Shown here: piece by piece, positions 2,937 through 19,018 of the stretch | Layout: every line of letters begins with the position of its first letter | How positions within the stretch are numbered: the first letter of the stretch is position 1 | Source of the DNA: a virus | DNA length: 26,277 nt | IMG/VR virus record: IMGVR_UViG_3300046167_000310 | Location: 1 to 26,277 of that record | Strand: one strand, 5' to 3' | Position numbers and translations under genes: made by a program | The notes under the pieces: model-generated | The model's input: only the letters and a program-made list of their open reading frames with translations | Databases searched by the model: none | Told to the model about the DNA's origin: nothing

Positions 2937-3045
2937 CCACAAGTTGGATGACATCCACAAGTCCAGTTTTGACCCAGCGGTGGACAAGCGCAGCACAGTA
3001 CTCCGCGAGGCGGTGGAATTCATTATGGACCAGGAGGAACTATGA
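2830..3045 (+). CDS. C-terminal part of the 2652 gene, or an overlapping gene
   Basis: A 71-residue frame that overlaps the 2652 frame by about 107 bases in another phase. Its second half (about residues 29-71) looks like a genuine soluble acidic C-terminus; the first 27 residues look like out-of-frame reading. The likeliest reading is that it is the continuation of the 2652 gene after a one-base insertion. A separate overlapping gene starting at ATG 2830 (GAGG directly upstream) is the alternative. Its stop TGA overlaps the ATG at 3042 of the repeat protein, as expected for the true end of the upstream gene. Confidence 0.45.
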   Translation: MSWTSLHLVGFALPGWTRSRPDRLGPLGEDSLIVCDHKLDDIHKSSFDPAVDKRSTVLREAVEFIMDQEEL

Positions 3046-3428
3046 GAAAACTAAGTGACACATTAAAAGAACTAGGTGTTGTCTTTAGCTTCCCTATTAA
3101 GATTATGGATGCCAATGGTAACGTGACTTACTCCGAGGAGAGCGATGGCGACTGGTGTAAGGTTGACTACGATGCCAATGGTAATCGGACTTACTTTGAG
3201 GATAGAGATGGCTTCTGGGAGAAGTCAGAATACGATGCCAACTGTAATGAGACTTACTTCGAGGACAGCAATGGCTACTGGTGGAGGTCTGAATACGATG
3301 CTAATGGTAATCAGACTTACTCCGAGGACAGTGACGGTGTAAAGAAGGGAACACCTCGTTCATCAAAGTCCTGCAACGGTAAGGTCATTGAGGTAGATGG
3401 TAAAAAATACAAACTAACGGAACTATGA
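3042..3428 (+). CDS. YD-like 21-residue repeat protein, copy 1
   Basis: A 128-residue protein with a leader (MRKLSDTLKELG...FSFPIKI), then four tandem 21-residue repeats at residues 23-106 (DNA 3108-3170, 3171-3233, 3234-3296, 3297-3359) of the pattern DANGNxTYxEDSxGxWxxxEY. The fourth changes to KKGTPRS. A basic tail follows. The pattern resembles the YD repeats of RHS-type proteins and similar units in other phage proteins whose role I do not know. A paralog with the same leader and same KKGTPRS end lies at 5869-6222. A GGAGG ribosome-binding site precedes the start, and the ATG overlaps the upstream stop (ATGA). Confidence 0.7.
   Translation: MRKLSDTLKELGVVFSFPIKIMDANGNVTYSEESDGDWCKVDYDANGNRTYFEDRDGFWEKSEYDANCNETYFEDSNGYWWRSEYDANGNQTYSEDSDGVKKGTPRSSKSCNGKVIEVDGKKYKLTEL
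3108..3359 (+). repeat. Four tandem 63-bp coding repeats
   Basis: Each unit begins GATGC(C/T)AA(T/C)(G/T)GTAA and is exactly 63 bp, in frame. The copies have diverged at synonymous and some non-synonymous sites, and the last is recoded after 40 bp. Unit count could change by slippage or recombination; the paralog at 5869 has about three units. Confidence 0.8.
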
Positions 3429-4377: not shown

Positions 4378-4935
4378 GTGGATACTACCAAAACAATTAC
4401 ACACCTCAGCCTCTGTAGCGGATACGAAGGCATTGGGCTTGGACTCCGAAGAGTTCTCCCAAATCTGCGAGAGATCGCTTACGTGGAGAGGGAAGGATTC
4501 CCGATCGCGAACCTGGTTGCAAAGATGGAAGCGGGAGAGCTGGATGCAGCACCTGTCTACACGGACGTTAAAACATTCCCATACGGAAAGTTTCGTGGAT
4601 GCGTGGACATCCTCTCTGGCGGATTCCCGTGCCAGCCATTCAGTGCTGCTGGAAAGCGTGAAGGCGTTGAAGACCCAAGGCATCTCTTCCCGTACATTAG
4701 GGACGGAATTAGAGCGTGCGAACCTCGAATTGTTTTCCTCGAAAACGTTGAAGGAATTATCTCAAGTAAGACCGCCGATGGAGAGTCGGTTCTCCAGTAT
4801 GTCCTCCGAGAGTTGGAAGGACTGGGTTACCGAGCAGAGGCAGGAATTTTCTCAGCGAGTGAAGTCGGCGCACCTCACCAGAGAAAGCGGGTCTTCATCT
4901 TGGGCTACTCCACAAGCATTCGATCACGTCAATAA
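4378..4935 (+). CDS. C5 cytosine DNA methyltransferase, N-terminal part (frameshifted)
   Basis: Transfers a methyl group from S-adenosylmethionine to cytosine C5 in DNA; in phages this often protects against host restriction. Visible motifs: I (SLCSGYEGIGLG, residues 11-22), IV with catalytic Cys85 (GGFPCQPFS, 81-89), VI (ENV, 122-124), VIII (HQRKRVFILG, 167-176). The frame then ends at 185 residues with nonsense after motif VIII. The target-recognition part and motif X continue downstream in other phases to 5353. GTG 4378 is used because the ATG at 4376 is out of phase; GAAAGGA lies upstream. Without repair the enzyme lacks its recognition domain. Confidence 0.85.
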   Translation: MDTTKTITHLSLCSGYEGIGLGLRRVLPNLREIAYVEREGFPIANLVAKMEAGELDAAPVYTDVKTFPYGKFRGCVDILSGGFPCQPFSAAGKREGVEDPRHLFPYIRDGIRACEPRIVFLENVEGIISSKTADGESVLQYVLRELEGLGYRAEAGIFSASEVGAPHQRKRVFILGYSTSIRSRQ

Positions 4936-5353
4936 CAGCCACCACAAGGGACTGGAAGGACACCAACGCAACAGGTTCCTCCGAGCCGTGCGAATCCATC
5001 CAAGCAAACACTTGGACAGAGGGTTGCACACGTTTCCCAGCTAGACCAAGGCGAACCACAAGCACAAATGGGAACAGCCAAGGGTCACAGCAGTGGGCGA
5101 CACCGAGAGCCAACAAGGTTCATCCAGTAATAACGGAGGAGAACCGAGCGCACCTAGCGAACCGCAAGAAGTCCAACCTAGAGGAGGACATTGCGGGTCA
5201 TTGCGGGAAAGCAACAGGCAAGCTGAACCCGGATTGGGTCGAGCAACTAATGGGGCTTTCAGTCGGGTGGACAGACTTAGGCTCCTGGGCAACGGAGTAG
5301 TTCCATTGACAGCGGCCAAGGCATTCGTAACCCTAATCAATAGATTCCTTTAA
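4936..5353 (+). pseudogene. Methyltransferase target-recognition region and motif X fragments
   Basis: Downstream continuation of the gene starting at 4378. One phase (about 4938-5300) encodes TTRDWKDTNATGSS, then QQWATPRANKVHP and LNPDWVEQLMGLSVGW, typical of the variable region and end of phage C5 methyltransferases. Motif X (RLRLLGNGVVPLTAAKAF) is read in another phase, about 5274-5353. The two phases read the same DNA near 5268-5285 as WTDL and as VDRL, so bases between two similar sequences may have been lost. A further shift lies at about 4905-4940. Either several sequencing errors or a decayed methyltransferase. Confidence 0.65.
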
Positions 5354-5572: not shown

Positions 5573-5872
5573 ATGTATGACACAACATCAGAATCAATCA
5601 GCCAGTTTATGAGCTGGGCTGCTTACAGAATCGCCAAGGAGGTTGAGGACAATGAGCGCATCGAGGCCGAGGCTGGCACGCGGGAGTTCATTCCGGGATC
5701 AACACCCAAGAGGCGGAGTGCGGTAAAGCCTTCATTGCAGGCAAAGCTGGTCAAGCGGATTGATGCCCTGCGAGCCGAGGGTCAGGACGCTACCTCAGCA
5801 GCCAAGGACTGCGGCGTAGGAGTAAGTGCTTACTACCGCTGGAAGAGAACACTACCAAAGGATTTACTATGA
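5573..5872 (+). CDS. Protein with C-terminal helix-turn-helix
   Basis: A 99-residue protein. The N-terminal third is acidic and helical, the middle is a basic linker (STPKRRSAVKPS, about residues 43-54), and the C-terminus (about residues 57-95) reads as a helix-turn-helix of the transposase-like kind: a first helix LVKRIDALRAEG, then SAAKDCGV, a turn, and VSAYYRWKRTL as a recognition helix. A transcription regulator or DNA-binding accessory protein is likely, target unknown. Its stop overlaps the ATG of the repeat protein at 5869 (ATGA), so the two are coupled. Confidence 0.65.
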   Translation: MYDTTSESISQFMSWAAYRIAKEVEDNERIEAEAGTREFIPGSTPKRRSAVKPSLQAKLVKRIDALRAEGQDATSAAKDCGVGVSAYYRWKRTLPKDLL

Positions 5873-6222
5873 AAAAATTAAGCGAGACGTATAAAGAACT
5901 AGGGATTGACTTCAGTTTTCCCATCGAGATTCGTAACCCCAATGGTAAGGAGGCCTACTACGAGGACAGTGAAGGCTTCTGGCGTAAGTATGAATACGAT
6001 TACAATGGTAAAGAGACTTACTTCGAGAACAGCAGTGGCTACTGGCAAAAGTATGAATACGATGCCGATGGTAAGGAGACTTACTTCGAGAACAGCGGTG
6101 GCTTCAAGAAAGGAACGCCACGGAGCCAGCCTAGCGAGAGACTAGTAACCAATTACGACGAGATAGCGGAGCTAAAGGGACAGATTACTGAGTTACGCAA
6201 GATGCTCGCCGAACACTTTTAA
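5869..6222 (+). CDS. YD-like 21-residue repeat protein, copy 2
   Basis: A 117-residue paralog of the protein at 3042-3428. The leader MKKLSETYKELG...FSFPIEI matches that of copy 1 closely. Then follow two full 21-residue units (residues 23-43 and 44-64; DNA 5935-5997 and 5998-6060) and a third ending KKGTPRS. The tail differs: residues 92-117 form a probable coiled coil (DEIAELKGQITELRKMLAEH), suggesting oligomerisation. The two copies flank the exonuclease and methyltransferase region. Function unknown. Confidence 0.7.
   Translation: MKKLSETYKELGIDFSFPIEIRNPNGKEAYYEDSEGFWRKYEYDYNGKETYFENSSGYWQKYEYDADGKETYFENSGGFKKGTPRSQPSERLVTNYDEIAELKGQITELRKMLAEHF
5935..6102 (+). repeat. Tandem 63-bp coding repeats, copy 2
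   Basis: Two complete 63-bp units and a partial third, each centred on AATGGTAA(G/A)GAG or GATGGTAAGGAG followed by (G/A)CTTACTTCGAGAACAGC. They are more alike than the units in copy 1, which fits recent tandem duplication. Confidence 0.7.
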
Positions 6223-8436: not shown

Positions 8437-8466
8437 CTTGACCCTTGCAATCCGGCTTGGGTCAAG
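8437..8466 (+). promoter_or_regulatory. Perfect 8-bp inverted repeat before the 8477 gene
   Basis: CTTGACCC (8437-8444) faces GGGTCAAG (8459-8466) across 14 bases. No T tract follows, so it is not a standard terminator. It ends 10 bases before ATG 8477, where an mRNA hairpin or operator could control translation. Its left half, TTGACCCTTG, also occurs at the -35 of the promoter at 11092. Confidence 0.45.
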
Positions 8467-8476
8467 TAATCTAAAT

Positions 8477-8689
8477 ATGACTAATAATTCACAACAAAAC
8501 CATAACGAAATGACTAAAATAAAAGAAGCTGCCGAAGTATCCCTATCACTTTATAACCAGATTGATGGCTATAAATTGAAGGAGGGTAATCGCATCACGC
8601 ATCAGTCCCTTGGACAGGTCCTTCGTTCTCTGGTAGCATTACTTGAAGATGAACCAACTGGACCTACTGATACACAATCAGCCGCATAG
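8477..8689 (+). CDS. Small hypothetical protein, 70 residues
   Basis: A hydrophilic helical protein starting MTNNSQQNHNEMTKIKEAAE. The open frame extends back to a TTG at 8438, but ATG 8477 is preferred because it has the TCTAAATATGA initiation context used by neighbouring genes and because the extension would lie in the hairpin. The end of the gene overlaps the helicase start (8649) by 41 bp in another phase, which suggests coupling. No family recognised; being directly before a helicase, an accessory or loader-like role is conceivable but unsupported. Confidence 0.5.
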   Translation: MTNNSQQNHNEMTKIKEAAEVSLSLYNQIDGYKLKEGNRITHQSLGQVLRSLVALLEDEPTGPTDTQSAA

Positions 8690-9985: not shown

Positions 9986-10396
9986 ATGACTGAAGCAGAA
10001 GTAGCTGAAAAGATAATGGCGGCCTTCCCTCGTATGAAGGAACTTCGCCAAGCAAGGGACGAATTCAGTCCCTTTGATTACGAGAGTGATGACTACCTGG
10101 TTGAGATTAAATCAAGACGCAAGGCTTATGATCCGTGGATTATTGAGCAGCTCAAGGTGGACACCAATGTCGCAATAGCCGAATCCGTTAAGAAGGACTT
10201 CATTTACGTGAATGCTTTTGAGTTACTCCTGTACATCTGGAATATCTCAAAGCTAATCCGGGAGGAATACGACTTCGGGTTCGAGGATAGGGAGATGCCT
10301 TGGACAACTGACTTCGAGGCAGTTCAAATCATAAGTAAGCGTACAGGATACCTGTACAGCAAGGATGCAATAATTGTTAACACGGAGGAGCTATGA
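9986..10396 (+). CDS. Putative PD-(D/E)XK-type nuclease
   Basis: A 136-residue protein starting 3 bp after the helicase. The core pattern FDYESDDYLVEIKSR (residues 30-44) gives D31 and E40-I-K42 on two strands, with a preceding helix containing E19 and a following helix WIIEQLKVDTNVAIAE; this is the layout of small PD-(D/E)XK nucleases. The C-terminal half has hydrophobic helices and strands. A DNA nuclease for processing replication intermediates or host DNA is likely, specificity unknown. Its stop overlaps the ATG of the HNH gene (ATGA). Confidence 0.6.
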   Translation: MTEAEVAEKIMAAFPRMKELRQARDEFSPFDYESDDYLVEIKSRRKAYDPWIIEQLKVDTNVAIAESVKKDFIYVNAFELLLYIWNISKLIREEYDFGFEDREMPWTTDFEAVQIISKRTGYLYSKDAIIVNTEEL

Positions 10397-11118
10397 TAAG
10401 TACTGAGACATCAAAGGATATAATTGTGGATGGAACCAGAGTAACCTGTTATTCCGATGGCAGTGTAACCGTTCACTCCCCTAGGAGCAAAGGTAGAACC
10501 TATGGCTACGATCACAAGAATGGGTACAGGTACGCAGCCTGGGGAAAGAAGAAGTACCGGGTTCACTCACTCATAGCTCAAGCGTTCCTTGGGGATCGAC
10601 CGGATGGTTTGGACGTGGACCACATTGACGGCAAGAAGGATAATAACGACCCATCAAATCTAAGGTACGTTACAAAAGAGCAGAACCTTCGTGGATACCA
10701 GAAGGTTAAGGGACGGTCAAAATACAGAGGCGTGTACCTCAAGAAAGATCACGACAAATGGTGCGTAAGCGTAGGTACAACTCTAAATGGCAAGCAGAAG
10801 AAAATTCACATCGGATACTTTGATAACGAGAAGGAAGCAGCGATTGCCCGTGATACCTATTGTTTCGAGGAGTTAAATTATCCACTCGAGGGACTTAATT
10901 TCCCGGACTTATTCGTTGACAAATCAAATGCAATGCACCAGCCTGAAACCGTGAAAGATAAAGAAGAAAACATTGAGCGTATCCAGACGCAGATCGAGAT
11001 GATCCGCCAGGAATCCAGGGTCCTGTCATATCGTATTGATCGTATGATGGAGCAGCGCAAAGATCTTTCGGAGGAAAAGCGCAGACTCAAATTGACCCTT
11101 GAAACGCTTGGTGTATAA
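10393..11118 (+). CDS. HNH endonuclease with AP2 domain
   Basis: A 241-residue HNH-AP2 protein, a class frequent among phage homing endonucleases. Domains: N-terminal strands (10-50); HNH core VHSLIAQAFLG, DVDHIDGKKDNN, PSNLRYVT (residues 57-94; H58, D76-H77, N85/N89); an AP2 DNA-binding domain (about 109-162: SKYRGVYLKKDHDKW, HIGYFDNEKEAAIARD); a highly charged coiled coil (190-238). The coiled coil is unusual for this class and suggests a dimer. It is translationally coupled to the nuclease gene upstream (GGAGG site before the ATGA overlap) and is the last rightward gene. Free-standing, with no intron visible. Confidence 0.88.
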   Translation: MISTETSKDIIVDGTRVTCYSDGSVTVHSPRSKGRTYGYDHKNGYRYAAWGKKKYRVHSLIAQAFLGDRPDGLDVDHIDGKKDNNDPSNLRYVTKEQNLRGYQKVKGRSKYRGVYLKKDHDKWCVSVGTTLNGKQKKIHIGYFDNEKEAAIARDTYCFEELNYPLEGLNFPDLFVDKSNAMHQPETVKDKEENIERIQTQIEMIRQESRVLSYRIDRMMEQRKDLSEEKRRLKLTLETLGV

Positions 11119-11119
11119 T
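11092..11119 (+). promoter_or_regulatory. Strong sigma70-like promoter at the end of the HNH gene
   Basis: TTGACC (11092-11097), a 16-bp spacer and a perfect TATAAT (11114-11119). The -10 box overlaps the HNH stop codon, so a transcript would begin near 11126, outside any rightward gene, and would run to the terminator at 11204-11242. This is the best -35/-10 pair I see in the window. It may drive a small RNA; a chance match inside coding sequence is possible for the -35 only. Confidence 0.55.
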
Positions 11120-11125
11120 ACAATT

Positions 11126-11243
11126 TCGAGGTAAGCTGTTGGAGTAATCCGCAGCGGGGGGATATGGTAGACGCCTCCTTATTAAGCCCTCGTTCGTTAG
11201 GTAGCCTCGCCCCTTTTGCTTATTTGGGGGGCGGGGCTTTTTA
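11126..11243 (+). ncRNA. Candidate phage small RNA of about 120 nt
   Basis: Bounded by the promoter at 11092-11119 and the terminator at 11204-11242, with no reading frame of note on the + strand. Possible internal pairing: CGAGG near 11125-11129 with CCTCG near 11188-11192, and GGGGG near 11155-11160 with CCTCC near 11174-11178. It is not a tRNA. It points into the 3' end of the leftward operon, so read-through could make antisense RNA to the last structural gene. Alternatively it is just spacer with a terminator for the HNH gene. Confidence 0.35.
11204..11242 (+). terminator. Strong rho-independent terminator
   Basis: GCCTCGCCCC (11204-11213) pairs with GGGGCGGGGC (11228-11237), 10 bp with one wobble, 14-nt loop, followed by TTTTTATTT. 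It serves rightward transcripts. On the minus strand no T tract follows, so it does not clearly end the leftward operon, whose last stop codon lies at 11241-11243. Confidence 0.85.
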
Positions 11244-13637
11244 TTTACTGATAATTGACTCGCCCTTCAGTCTAATCAGGATTGCCCTAATGTCGCCTCT
11301 CTTAAGTTTACCTCTATCGTAATCCTCCTGGAGCATACGGATTGCCATTGGCTCAGGCATTTTCTTAGCTAGATCAACGTAGCGTGTTCTTTTTTCCTGG
11401 CGATCGGAGATACTAACATTCGAGGATATTGGCATATCTGAAATTACGCCAGTCATAATCTCTTGAGTCTGGTCCTTACTGAATTTTTTCTTGAGTAGCT
11501 TTTGTATCTCCTCATCCGAAACCTCAAGAGTTCTCAAATTATTTGTATGGCGTATAGCTTCAGCTATATTCTGTTTATATATTGAGTTCTGCTTATTGTA
11601 ATCACCGGAGATGTCGCGATCATCAAATGTAGCACCAGCGTACTTTGATCGAAGTCCTTTGATATTCTTGTTAATATCATTGAACTTATATCTAGCTCCG
11701 TCCAATACATCCAAGTTCCGAACACGGTATCCAAGCGTATAGCGAAGCACGTTATCCATTGATTCGCGTTCATCTAGTTTCTTGAGGTCGGAAACAGTTC
11801 CTGGAGTAAATGTCTCACCTAAGTACCAGCCGATGAGATCCAAGTTCTTAGCCATACCGTCTATCTTATCCGATATTTGGCGACCACTTTGATCCATATT
11901 GTTCACTGCTGATACAATATTTTTCATATTGATTGTAAGGTCCCCGCCGAACTTACCCCACATTGAATCAATGGCTCTCCCAGCTGAGTCCATAAAGTTC
12001 TCACCCTTGAATCCGGACTCAACTATTGTTGACAGCTCAGCGGTTGGAATCTGGTAACCAAGGTTCGCAACTCTAACCTTGTTGCCGTCCTTACGAATGT
12101 GTAACGCCTGATCCTGTTCCCACGGAGCAAGGGCAGTCTCGCGAAGGGCGCGTTCCTTCTCCTCGTCAACACCACCCTCGCGGTTCATTACCATCGGTAT
12201 AGTTGATCCAGCCGTTAGTACAGCACTAAGAGCAGCAAATCGCTTGTAGCCCTCCCTCTGGATTCTCTTCTGGGTATCTTGATTGATACTTACTCCGTAC
12301 TTATCCTTGAGCATATTTGAGAAGTCCCCACTCACCATTGACCGAGCTAACTTAGCCTGGTTGTAGGTGGTTCTCATTAGCTCAAAATTAAATGCACCGA
12401 ACTCATTCAGGATGCCGTATCTGGACAATGAGCGCACACCCTTGTTGATGCGGTCATAATTCATATAGGTGTCATTGGTAAGGTCCGCAGACATCTGCTC
12501 GAACTCACGTTTACCCATACGCTTTATGTCAACATTTGGCACAACGTCATTCAGGAACCTCTTATAGTTCTCATAAACCGAGATACGTTGAGCTGTATCA
12601 AATGTATTGTAGGCATTGCCTACGCCCTTTACAGCCTTCTGGAATAACTTAGGCGTGATTCCATTCTTGAATCCGTCCCGAATGTCCGAAGCTGTTACGC
12701 CTTTATTAACAATCCCCAGTTCTTTGAGTCGATTGAGTTCAAGGATTGGAATCCTGCCACTCTTGTAACTATTAGGTAAAGTCTCATTGATCGCTACACG
12801 CATTCCTTTACCGTACGCGCGGAATGGATTGAAGCCTTGACCCGCAGTAAGTACGGCATTACCCACTAGCTGAACTGGATAAGAAGCGAGGTTCAAAGGA
12901 ACCCTGACGAACTTAGCGGCAGCCGTTGTGGATGAAAGTAAACCATCCACCAGTCGGCTAAACCACGGTCCAGAATCCCTCAAAGAACCACTGCCGTACA
13001 GCTCATTGAGTGCTCGATTCGCATCCTCTGGGACATAGATTGTATTTCCCTCCTGTAGCTTACTGGACTGAACGTAGCCATCAGGTGTTTTTAATTTACG
13101 CGGTACGCGCATATCACCCTCCCGCATCTCTCGACCACGAATAACTAGTGGTTCAAAACCCTCTGGCACTTCACCCGGAGCGAAGGTTTTACCAATATTG
13201 TTACGCAACATTTCATTAGCTATGCGGCGATTACCAGCTTCGTACGAAGCAAGTTTACCAAGACGTGAGATTGTTCCGAACATTCTTTCGCCGGCTTCCT
13301 TGTACTCACCAAGGTACTCAAGCATCTCATCACTCAGGCTTAAATCCTTTCGCTTAAATACGCGCTTATTGCCAGCAATGGTGTTCATCAGACGGACTGA
13401 ATCCGACCGACTATCCTGAAGATCCTGTAGGAACTTGTTGATTTCATCATCATTAGCTCCATCCTTCTTCATACTTATGCGGAGATTATTCTCAGCATCA
13501 GCGGATGGTTTGTAATTACTATCCTCATAGAACCTGTACTCACGAGTGAAGTAATTCTTGGAATCAATACTATCCTTTATTTTAGCAGCTATTCTTGGAT
13601 CAATGTCCAGCTCCCCGGACTTGTACATCTCGTACAC
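11241..13637 (-). CDS. Large internal virion-like protein, C-terminal part
   Basis: A 798-residue frame that is the continuation of the gene starting at 14695. The reading frame continues upstream past its first Met into ARKKIDQYQNTV and GIKDTLDG, without a start signal, so this is not a separate gene. Hydrophobic stretch AALSAVLTAGSTIPM (around DNA 12200) and amphipathic helices with NLASYPVQLVGNAVL recall polyvalent or DNA-ejection proteins of podophages. Polar, basic C-terminus. The joined protein would have 1151 residues. Probable role: internal virion protein released with the DNA. This is family-level inference; I see no lysozyme or transglycosylase motif. Confidence 0.6.
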   Translation of the reverse strand: MYEMYKSGELDIDPRIAAKIKDSIDSKNYFTREYRFYEDSNYKPSADAENNLRISMKKDGANDDEINKFLQDLQDSRSDSVRLMNTIAGNKRVFKRKDLSLSDEMLEYLGEYKEAGERMFGTISRLGKLASYEAGNRRIANEMLRNNIGKTFAPGEVPEGFEPLVIRGREMREGDMRVPRKLKTPDGYVQSSKLQEGNTIYVPEDANRALNELYGSGSLRDSGPWFSRLVDGLLSSTTAAAKFVRVPLNLASYPVQLVGNAVLTAGQGFNPFRAYGKGMRVAINETLPNSYKSGRIPILELNRLKELGIVNKGVTASDIRDGFKNGITPKLFQKAVKGVGNAYNTFDTAQRISVYENYKRFLNDVVPNVDIKRMGKREFEQMSADLTNDTYMNYDRINKGVRSLSRYGILNEFGAFNFELMRTTYNQAKLARSMVSGDFSNMLKDKYGVSINQDTQKRIQREGYKRFAALSAVLTAGSTIPMVMNREGGVDEEKERALRETALAPWEQDQALHIRKDGNKVRVANLGYQIPTAELSTIVESGFKGENFMDSAGRAIDSMWGKFGGDLTINMKNIVSAVNNMDQSGRQISDKIDGMAKNLDLIGWYLGETFTPGTVSDLKKLDERESMDNVLRYTLGYRVRNLDVLDGARYKFNDINKNIKGLRSKYAGATFDDRDISGDYNKQNSIYKQNIAEAIRHTNNLRTLEVSDEEIQKLLKKKFSKDQTQEIMTGVISDMPISSNVSISDRQEKRTRYVDLAKKMPEPMAIRMLQEDYDRGKLKRGDIRAILIRLKGESIISK

Positions 13638-17624: not shown

Positions 17625-19018
17625 TAGGAAACCGGGGTTGTGTCCGCTATTACGACCTGCTTCATATACGTGATATTTCCATCAATATCCTCGAATGCTT
17701 TCTTGATATTTACGTCCAGTACGTATCGCTTGCCCAAGGGATTCTCAGGTCCACCTTGTATTTTAATTTTACCGGAAGCACCATTATCGACATTCCGACC
17801 CTCGATCCAGAATCCCCTTCCAGATATACCAAATCCGGTATTTCCTGGAGAGGAGAGAGCGCCTAGCTCCTCATAGTTTGATGCCTCCAGCACATTGATT
17901 CCACTCCAGGTTGCATCCTGTGGCTCGTTTCCACCACCTGAACCAGTATGCAATGTCCCAGATGTCGTGCCACCTACATTTGTATAAGTCTCGGACCACG
18001 ATCCAGTCCTTAGACTGTAGGTATATGTATTATTACCGGATGTACCATCCGTTGCAACTGGGTCATCAATCTCATCGGTATAGTTGATTTCCCACTGGCT
18101 CCCGCTCCACTCCATATCAATGGTATATTTTCCCTTTACTAGATATGGCCCCCTGTGTACCACTACACCACCAGAAGAGAAAACCCTTTCAACAACATCA
18201 TAATCATAATGTATTGTTTGCCGATAGATGGATTTACCATTAGATAATTCTGTGGTCTCCTCCAGTTCGATTGATTCCGGGGTATATGTTTCCCCTCTGG
18301 ATCGAATCTGAGCACCGTTATCTCCAGTTACGGCAATTGACGTTCTGGTGCGGCAGCCCCGAATACCTTGAGCGTTAAAATAGGCCGGTTGGACAACATT
18401 ACTATCATTGACAAAACTATCGATAGTGCTTATCTTTTGACACCACTCAGACGGGTTCCATATTCCCAATGATCCATCAAGTGTGTAGTCACTTGACACA
18501 ATATCGGGCGAGCTTTGATAATATATTTGTACATCAGCTTTTACTTTTGCCTCCACCGGGGATCGAACCGCAGGAAATATATGGTTTTGCTCACGTACCA
18601 AATCAACTACACCGGGAAATGTAAACGGGACAAGTTGCTGGTATTCGTAATTAAGTTTAGACGCACCGCCCGATCCGGTTAAATCCGTCCCATCTGAACT
18701 CTGAAGGGTGGTAACAGTAATTGTTCTTAGACCATCGTAGCTACCAATCTCCCTACTGATAATGTCACCGCTGGTTGATCCCTCAACAGCTAGGAATGTA
18801 GTCGATACGCTACGTACTCCCTCATTTCTATTTTGAGTTCGCGTACTTAGGGTCCCAGCCTCCGCCCACTGCGTAGTGACTCGACCGATCTGAGTATCGG
18901 ACTTGGATTCAGTCTCATCTTTGAACCCAGCCAAATATAAAGTCTTACCTCCGTCGGTAATCGTACTTACCCCAATATCATCCTCATCGTAGGGAGCCGT
19001 AGCCTGTAATAACGGCAA
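17624..19018 (-). CDS. Tail-like protein, C-terminal part (frameshifted)
   Basis: Frame of 464 residues, Thr/Ser/Gly-rich and beta-like, read from a TTG at 19018, but it is more likely the continuation of the 18984-19403 frame. Removing one G near the shared sequence ACAGGCTAC (about 19000) yields VAVITATAPYDEDDIGVS and joins a matching context: ERSQ before and GGKTLYLAGFKDETES after. The joined protein has 592 residues ending at 17624. Segments such as EAGTLSTRTQNRNEG are reminiscent of tail proteins of marine phages. No enzymatic motif. The TAATG overlap with the next gene is intact. Confidence 0.6.
   Translation of the reverse strand: MPLLQATAPYDEDDIGVSTITDGGKTLYLAGFKDETESKSDTQIGRVTTQWAEAGTLSTRTQNRNEGVRSVSTTFLAVEGSTSGDIISREIGSYDGLRTITVTTLQSSDGTDLTGSGGASKLNYEYQQLVPFTFPGVVDLVREQNHIFPAVRSPVEAKVKADVQIYYQSSPDIVSSDYTLDGSLGIWNPSEWCQKISTIDSFVNDSNVVQPAYFNAQGIRGCRTRTSIAVTGDNGAQIRSRGETYTPESIELEETTELSNGKSIYRQTIHYDYDVVERVFSSGGVVVHRGPYLVKGKYTIDMEWSGSQWEINYTDEIDDPVATDGTSGNNTYTYSLRTGSWSETYTNVGGTTSGTLHTGSGGGNEPQDATWSGINVLEASNYEELGALSSPGNTGFGISGRGFWIEGRNVDNGASGKIKIQGGPENPLGKRYVLDVNIKKAFEDIDGNITYMKQVVIADTTPVS

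Follow-up and report, generated by a model that had tools for sequence, protein, structure and literature searches.

The window, a stretch of 26,277 nt that comprises positions 1–26,277 of the IMG/VR record IMGVR_UViG_3300046167_000310, carries a rightward early block and a leftward structural block that converge on a short junction. The features of this junction are as follows.

10393–11118, + strand: upstream gene, last of the rightward early block, whose product joins an HNH/AP2 endonuclease domain to a ~55-aa coiled-coil protein
11092–11097, + strand: −35-like TTGACC, without conservation in relatives
11101–11104, + strand: GAAA box upstream of the −10, with GAA retained in 12 of 14 representatives at a distance that differs by no more than one base
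11112–11119, + strand: conserved TGTATAAT (−10), overlapping the stop codon of ORF 10393–11118
11116–11118, + strand: TAA stop of ORF 10393–11118
11126–11193, + strand: RNA core, a three-way junction backed by covariation (70.8 bits with covariance model R1)
11198–11243, + strand: intrinsic terminator with a 13-bp G+C-rich stem and a U-tract
11241–13637, − strand: convergent gene of the structural block, which varies among RNA carriers

The ~55-aa coiled-coil protein is encoded by a standalone gene in many relatives (L004, L008, L012 and L035), so the HNH/AP2 nuclease looks like an insertion at the 5′ end of the coiled-coil gene. Among the carriers of the RNA, the gene upstream is the coiled coil alone, the HNH/AP2-coiled coil fusion or others, and the protein opposite, on the structural side, also changes. 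Judged from these genomes, conservation of the RNA is independent of both the upstream gene and the opposite protein. A first-pass annotation of this DNA had suggested that transcription from the junction might form a collision barrier against the structural operon; that role finds no support, and conservation of the RNA does not depend on which structural protein faces it. The same annotation described the interval as gene-free, and we saw no convincing gene there: its sole ORF (11164–11322, 52 aa) was judged to be mechanical, and the loop of hairpin P3 (see below) varies freely in length among relatives. Elsewhere in the window, a C5 DNA methyltransferase-like frame at 4378–5353 is split into 4378–4935 and 5093–5353 in different frames, indicating a frameshift or a broken gene, and the products of 3042–3428 and 5869–6222 are small proteins that resemble each other and contain tandem YDANGN-TYFEDS-GYW-type repeats.

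The annotation had proposed a small RNA running from a TTGACC-16 bp-TATAAT promoter, placed over the stop of the last rightward gene, to a very strong terminator about 110 bp downstream. Both elements lie as described: the TATAAT hexamer occupies 11114–11119, 16 bp from TTGACC, and the terminator hairpin at 11203–11238 (−26 kcal/mol, z −3.9) is followed by T5. The terminator is readable on the + strand only, as the opposite side lacks a T-tract. The promoter is not, as had been claimed, the best −35/−10 pair of the window, since two pairs score 11/12, the other being at 18493 (+). With 0.8 such pairs expected by chance per window under a first-order Markov null, the promoter match alone stands at chance level. 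Single-sequence folding of the core was also unremarkable (z −1.0). Thus, the window by itself cannot decide, and the feature is significant only through comparison with relatives.

Two relatives were first fetched through a structural protein. At the matching junction of L001, GAGGTAAGC-N5-GAGTAATCC was kept, and the stems had changed yet were still complementary. A pattern scan of IMG/VR returned 58 stretches, mostly with a 6-base gap, and all 20 that we checked were syntenic; a looser scan returned 113 stretches, 80 of which were listed. The covariance model confirms the RNA in more than 100 distinct IMG/VR records, where its position is almost always the end of the early block. A copy also lies at 12766–12835 on the − strand of a complete phage genome, C75C1 (OQ984151.1), where the early block has just ended and the structural block is opposite; this genome was reached by protein search only, and blastn of the junction against INPHARED gave no match.

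The conserved core is ~68 nt long and consists of the following parts.

11127–11131, + strand: 5′ strand of P1, CGAGG, pairing with 11188–11192 (96.5% paired in the alignment, two-sided changes at 3 of 5 pairs)
11132–11134, + strand: junction J1/2, UAA (rarely CAA, UGA or UUA in relatives)
11135–11155, + strand: P2 hairpin with a GUAA tetraloop at 11144–11147 (GCAA in L271)
11156–11179, + strand: P3 hairpin with a variable loop and a closing G-U pair, G11156/U11179
11180–11187, + strand: junction J3/1, UAUUAAGC, consensus nnUUnAnn
11188–11192, + strand: 3′ strand of P1, CCUCG

An alignment of 26 sequences (A3) was made and covariance model R1 was built. In A3, 92.1% of the cells were paired, against about half when the partners were slid, and P1, P2 and P3 were all supported, with 69 two-sided changes compared with 21 in shuffled alignments. 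In the larger set of 62 distinct members, an alignment that was fitted to the model and so leans towards it, 92.5% of 1108 cells were paired versus about 41–55% with partners slid by 1–3 columns, and 12 of the 18 pairs had two-sided changes. A covariance check on related junctions had been put forward in the first-pass annotation, and the RNA passed it, with 155 two-sided changes in these members against 46 in shuffles. RNAalifold, run unaided, returned a matching fold in which P3 gains a basal G-U pair, and when divergent members were folded one at a time, the results agreed with the three-way junction. Members fetched by their helicase added further variants, for example P1 as AGUAGG/CCUACU, P2 as GACAG/CUGUC, and A-U in place of G-C in a loop stem. 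At the paired columns of A3, G-U cells outnumber A-C cells by 57 to 5, which identifies the + (rightward) strand as the RNA. Compensatory changes in several helices, together with this strand preference, are what is expected of a conserved structured non-coding RNA.

The invariant alignment columns (5–6, 9–10, 18–19, 21–23, 30, 33, 68, 75, 77 and 80–81) belong nearly all to the GNRA loop or to the junction and its flanks, and the other loops and the linkers are variable. Since the tetraloop is GUAA in 61 of the 62 distinct members and GCAA in L271, every member has a GNRA loop. A terminator follows the core in nearly all carriers, although the spacing between the two and the terminator sequences vary. 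An intrinsic terminator of its own is what an independent small RNA gene should have.

In the promoter, the −10 is conserved and the −35 is not. Of 64 distinct upstream sequences, 43 contain TATAAT, versus 5.9% per sequence expected in shuffles; it is nearly always part of TGTATAAT, so that the TG in front is conserved too, and a GAA box lies ~11–13 bases before it, retained partly because it is coding. In these 43 relatives the best −35 matches resemble background. The distance from TGTATAAT to P1 is 6–13 nt, except in the type of L064, L070 and L079, where the −10 stands 32–41 nt from P1 and an extra 5′ hairpin fills the gap. This hairpin was seen in L064, L070, L071, L079, L101, L128 and L132; its stems, CAGUGAG/CUCACUG and in L079 AGUGGG/CCCACU, show matched changes. 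The −10 is conserved also where the upstream gene stops before it (L006, L064 and L065 types). Exact TATAAT is absent from about a third of the distinct upstream sequences. Some of these belong to the L087/L103/L208 group, the L063–L085 group and L257, where, on reading the sequence, the upstream ORF enters the fold and terminates at the tetraloop UAA. As the RNA persists in such lineages, its fold overlapping the upstream coding frame, an independent promoter is not essential. As a promoter of the RNA's own, then, what we find is TATAAT in 43 of 64 sequences, a −35 at background and several lineages lacking the −10. Covariation, strand asymmetry and synteny strongly back a small structured RNA that has a −10 and a terminator of its own; the −35 and the best-pair claim of the first-pass annotation find no such backing.

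Upstream of some leftward structural genes, ~6 nt from the ATG, stands a conserved AACCCTTTATGA-TATAAT. These sites lie as follows.

Window, − strand: 16284 and 24608
Relatives, − strand: L012 11197, L015 10545 and L101 6296
Relative, + strand: L066 1139

At only ~6 nt from the ATG, they suggest that the structural-gene transcripts may be leaderless. This class of promoter may be related to the one before the RNA; the likeness between AACCCTTTATGA-TATAAT and GAAnnn...TGTATAAT is only partial.

Phages fetched with helicase as bait also carried the RNA (L136/L137, L173, L178, L185, L187 and L190–L193). We mapped it on a helicase tree (FastTree, 109 rows), which needs three changes of the RNA presence label, a label biased towards presence because many carriers had been fetched by the RNA pattern. 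In the 58-row clade that includes the window, every sampled row has the RNA. It is also found in C75C1, L090, L127, L102, L257, L272 and L072, some of which are on long branches, so that their placement is unsure. Among the helicase-fetched close relatives that reach the junction, all have the RNA except L204. In that relative the sequence departs after the 136-aa gene and no RNA follows; the contig is possibly chimeric. The RNA is absent from the L002/L211–L250 lineages and others, which keep the terminator and often the coiled-coil gene too. Relatives that retain a terminator only had been named in the first-pass annotation as evidence that would count against an RNA; such relatives do exist, all of them outside the clade to which the window belongs. 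In GTDB species genomes, the strict pattern gave two matches, one of them due to chance and the other true (L208). Since this single true match is on an all-phage 11-kb contig, the RNA looks phage-specific; the contig sits in a Lewinellaceae bin, which is weak evidence on the host.

Taken together, the comparison of carriers shows that a strand-specific fold, its position, the order of its modules and, in most lineages, the −10 are conserved. Our model is that the locus encodes a structured non-coding RNA that would act in trans through its shape, by binding a protein or a ligand, and we hold this to be somewhat more probable than all other readings combined. Transcription would begin near 11126, from the TGTATAAT promoter within the end of the last early gene, and yield a discrete transcript of ~117 nt reaching the terminator at ~11243. 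Its 5′ end would fold at once into the three-way junction of P1, P2 with its GNRA loop, and P3, the terminator hairpin after the core forming a separate module. The folded core would then be recognized in trans, in a structure-specific manner, by a phage or host protein or by a small ligand. We favor such binding over an antisense mechanism because nearly all invariant bases cluster around the junction or in the GNRA loop, and there is no conserved unpaired stretch of seed length. In lineages lacking the −10, the RNA is probably released by processing of the early operon mRNA at its 3′ end. A narrower and distinctly speculative version has the core confer specificity on a ribonucleoprotein that would redirect a host machine, be it RNA polymerase, the ribosome or an RNase, during infection. 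We found no gene that tracks the RNA across phages. An 83-aa gene at 8438–8689 had looked like a co-occurring gene and was rejected: it follows phylogeny and is present in the RNA-less L287 and L289.

The main rival arises from the lineages without a promoter. The core could be a cis-acting 3′-UTR element of the early operon mRNA, stabilizing or destabilizing the upstream message or serving as a processing site, with the promoter being secondary; we consider this a serious possibility, albeit clearly less probable than action in trans. The core does come last in the early block, directly before the terminator, in several lineages the −10 is missing and the fold overlaps the last ORF, and structured 3′-UTR domains have precedents (PMC2864571). 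In contrast, most of the clade retains the −10, even where the upstream gene ends earlier (L006, L064 and L065 types). Moreover, the gene upstream changes between carriers (L062, L085, L095 and L257), so there is no single target message common to them.

A −10 of its own and an intrinsic terminator are also the classic layout of a base-pairing regulatory sRNA or a sponge, which would repress or protect phage or host mRNAs. We think this improbable, as column conservation reveals no unpaired conserved stretch of at least 6 bases; unpaired conservation is limited to UAA and nnUUnAnn, and the P3 loop and the linkers vary. The sponge role once suggested for the junction is therefore unsupported, for want of a conserved unpaired stretch long enough for an antisense seed.

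Slightly less probable still is a riboswitch, an attenuator or a put-like antiterminator controlling the adjacent terminator in cis. The terminator after the core in nearly all carriers would suit it, as would L257 and L272, where a rightward ferredoxin-like gene comes after the terminator; this is the one arrangement we saw in which an attenuator would make sense. The site in question is 7409–7469 in L257 and 3587–3647 in L272, and the ferredoxin-like gene matches phrog_3704 (tested in L257). However, most genomes have nothing in sense orientation downstream, the spacing from core to terminator varies, and pairing between the 5′ strand and the terminator arm is mostly 4–5 bases with no one conserved pairing. 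In the window, CGAGG of P1 complements CCUCG of the terminator arm, and we discarded terminator switching by the 5′ strand as this pairing is not conserved. The early/late switch raised in the first-pass annotation fares no better, with no conserved alternative pairing of the terminator and mostly no sense gene downstream.

We regard as very unlikely a decoy of the 16S rRNA 3′ end (helix 45 region). With filters off, one of the best R1 matches in an rRNA operon was the E. coli 16S 3′ end (11.2 bits, E 0.12), to which L079 aligns well, but a minus-strand match scores higher (13.1 bits), and for many members other parts of 16S, such as the region around 543–617, give an equally good or better alignment. 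Free covariation in P1 and P2 means that no rRNA sequence is retained, and a 16S 3′-end mimic was rejected as no better than background. Lastly, a terminator with a chance promoter and no RNA gene would agree with the chance-level promoter score and with the sister lineages that keep just the terminator, but covariation and synteny across more than 100 contigs contradict it, leaving it practically no probability.

More than 100 phage contigs keep the three-armed shape despite their differing sequences, which suggests that the RNA matters to the virus. The shape and the invariant bases are kept while carrier helicases fall to about 41% identity, and the RNA is present throughout the 58-row clade; thus, it is likely important in the infection programme. 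Its carriers form a large, almost uncultured phage group, and the ~68-nt core offers a compact target for pull-down and structural work. More broadly, convergent phage junctions, commonly taken for mere terminators, can harbour RNA genes.

Finally, we compared the RNA with known families and systems. At gathering scores, no Rfam 15 family matched anywhere in the window, and at E up to 10 on 11050–11260 all matches were far below those scores. ARAGORN found no tRNA or tmRNA in the window, and a tRNA-like reading of GGTAGAC at 11166–11172 was dropped, this motif lying in the variable P3 loop. Searches of the open-access literature yielded no description of the window RNA. The kind, a phage structured non-coding RNA, is known, and the family described here appears to be new. 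The T4 species 1 and 2 RNAs and the phi29 pRNA are phage-encoded small structured RNAs. Like them, the window RNA is short, non-coding and phage-encoded with a defined fold; unlike them, it has another fold and another genome position, and no Rfam family matches it. Elements of the lambda sib type are defined by a cis effect on the upstream mRNA through RNase III processing. The lambda sib retroregulator and the L17 downstream element are the precedents for structured 3′-UTR domains (PMC2864571), and they too are structured, at an operon 3′ end and adjoining a terminator. We found no match to them in sequence or fold, and the window RNA differs in having its own conserved −10 in most lineages and an inconstant upstream gene. 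Weinberg et al. 2010 described the phage-associated c4 antisense RNA, manA and wcaG motifs (PMC2864571), none of which has an Rfam match in the window. These motifs are likewise structured, were found by covariation and come partly from marine phages; manA and wcaG were described as gene-regulating domains (PMC2864571), whereas the window RNA stands at a convergent 3′ junction.
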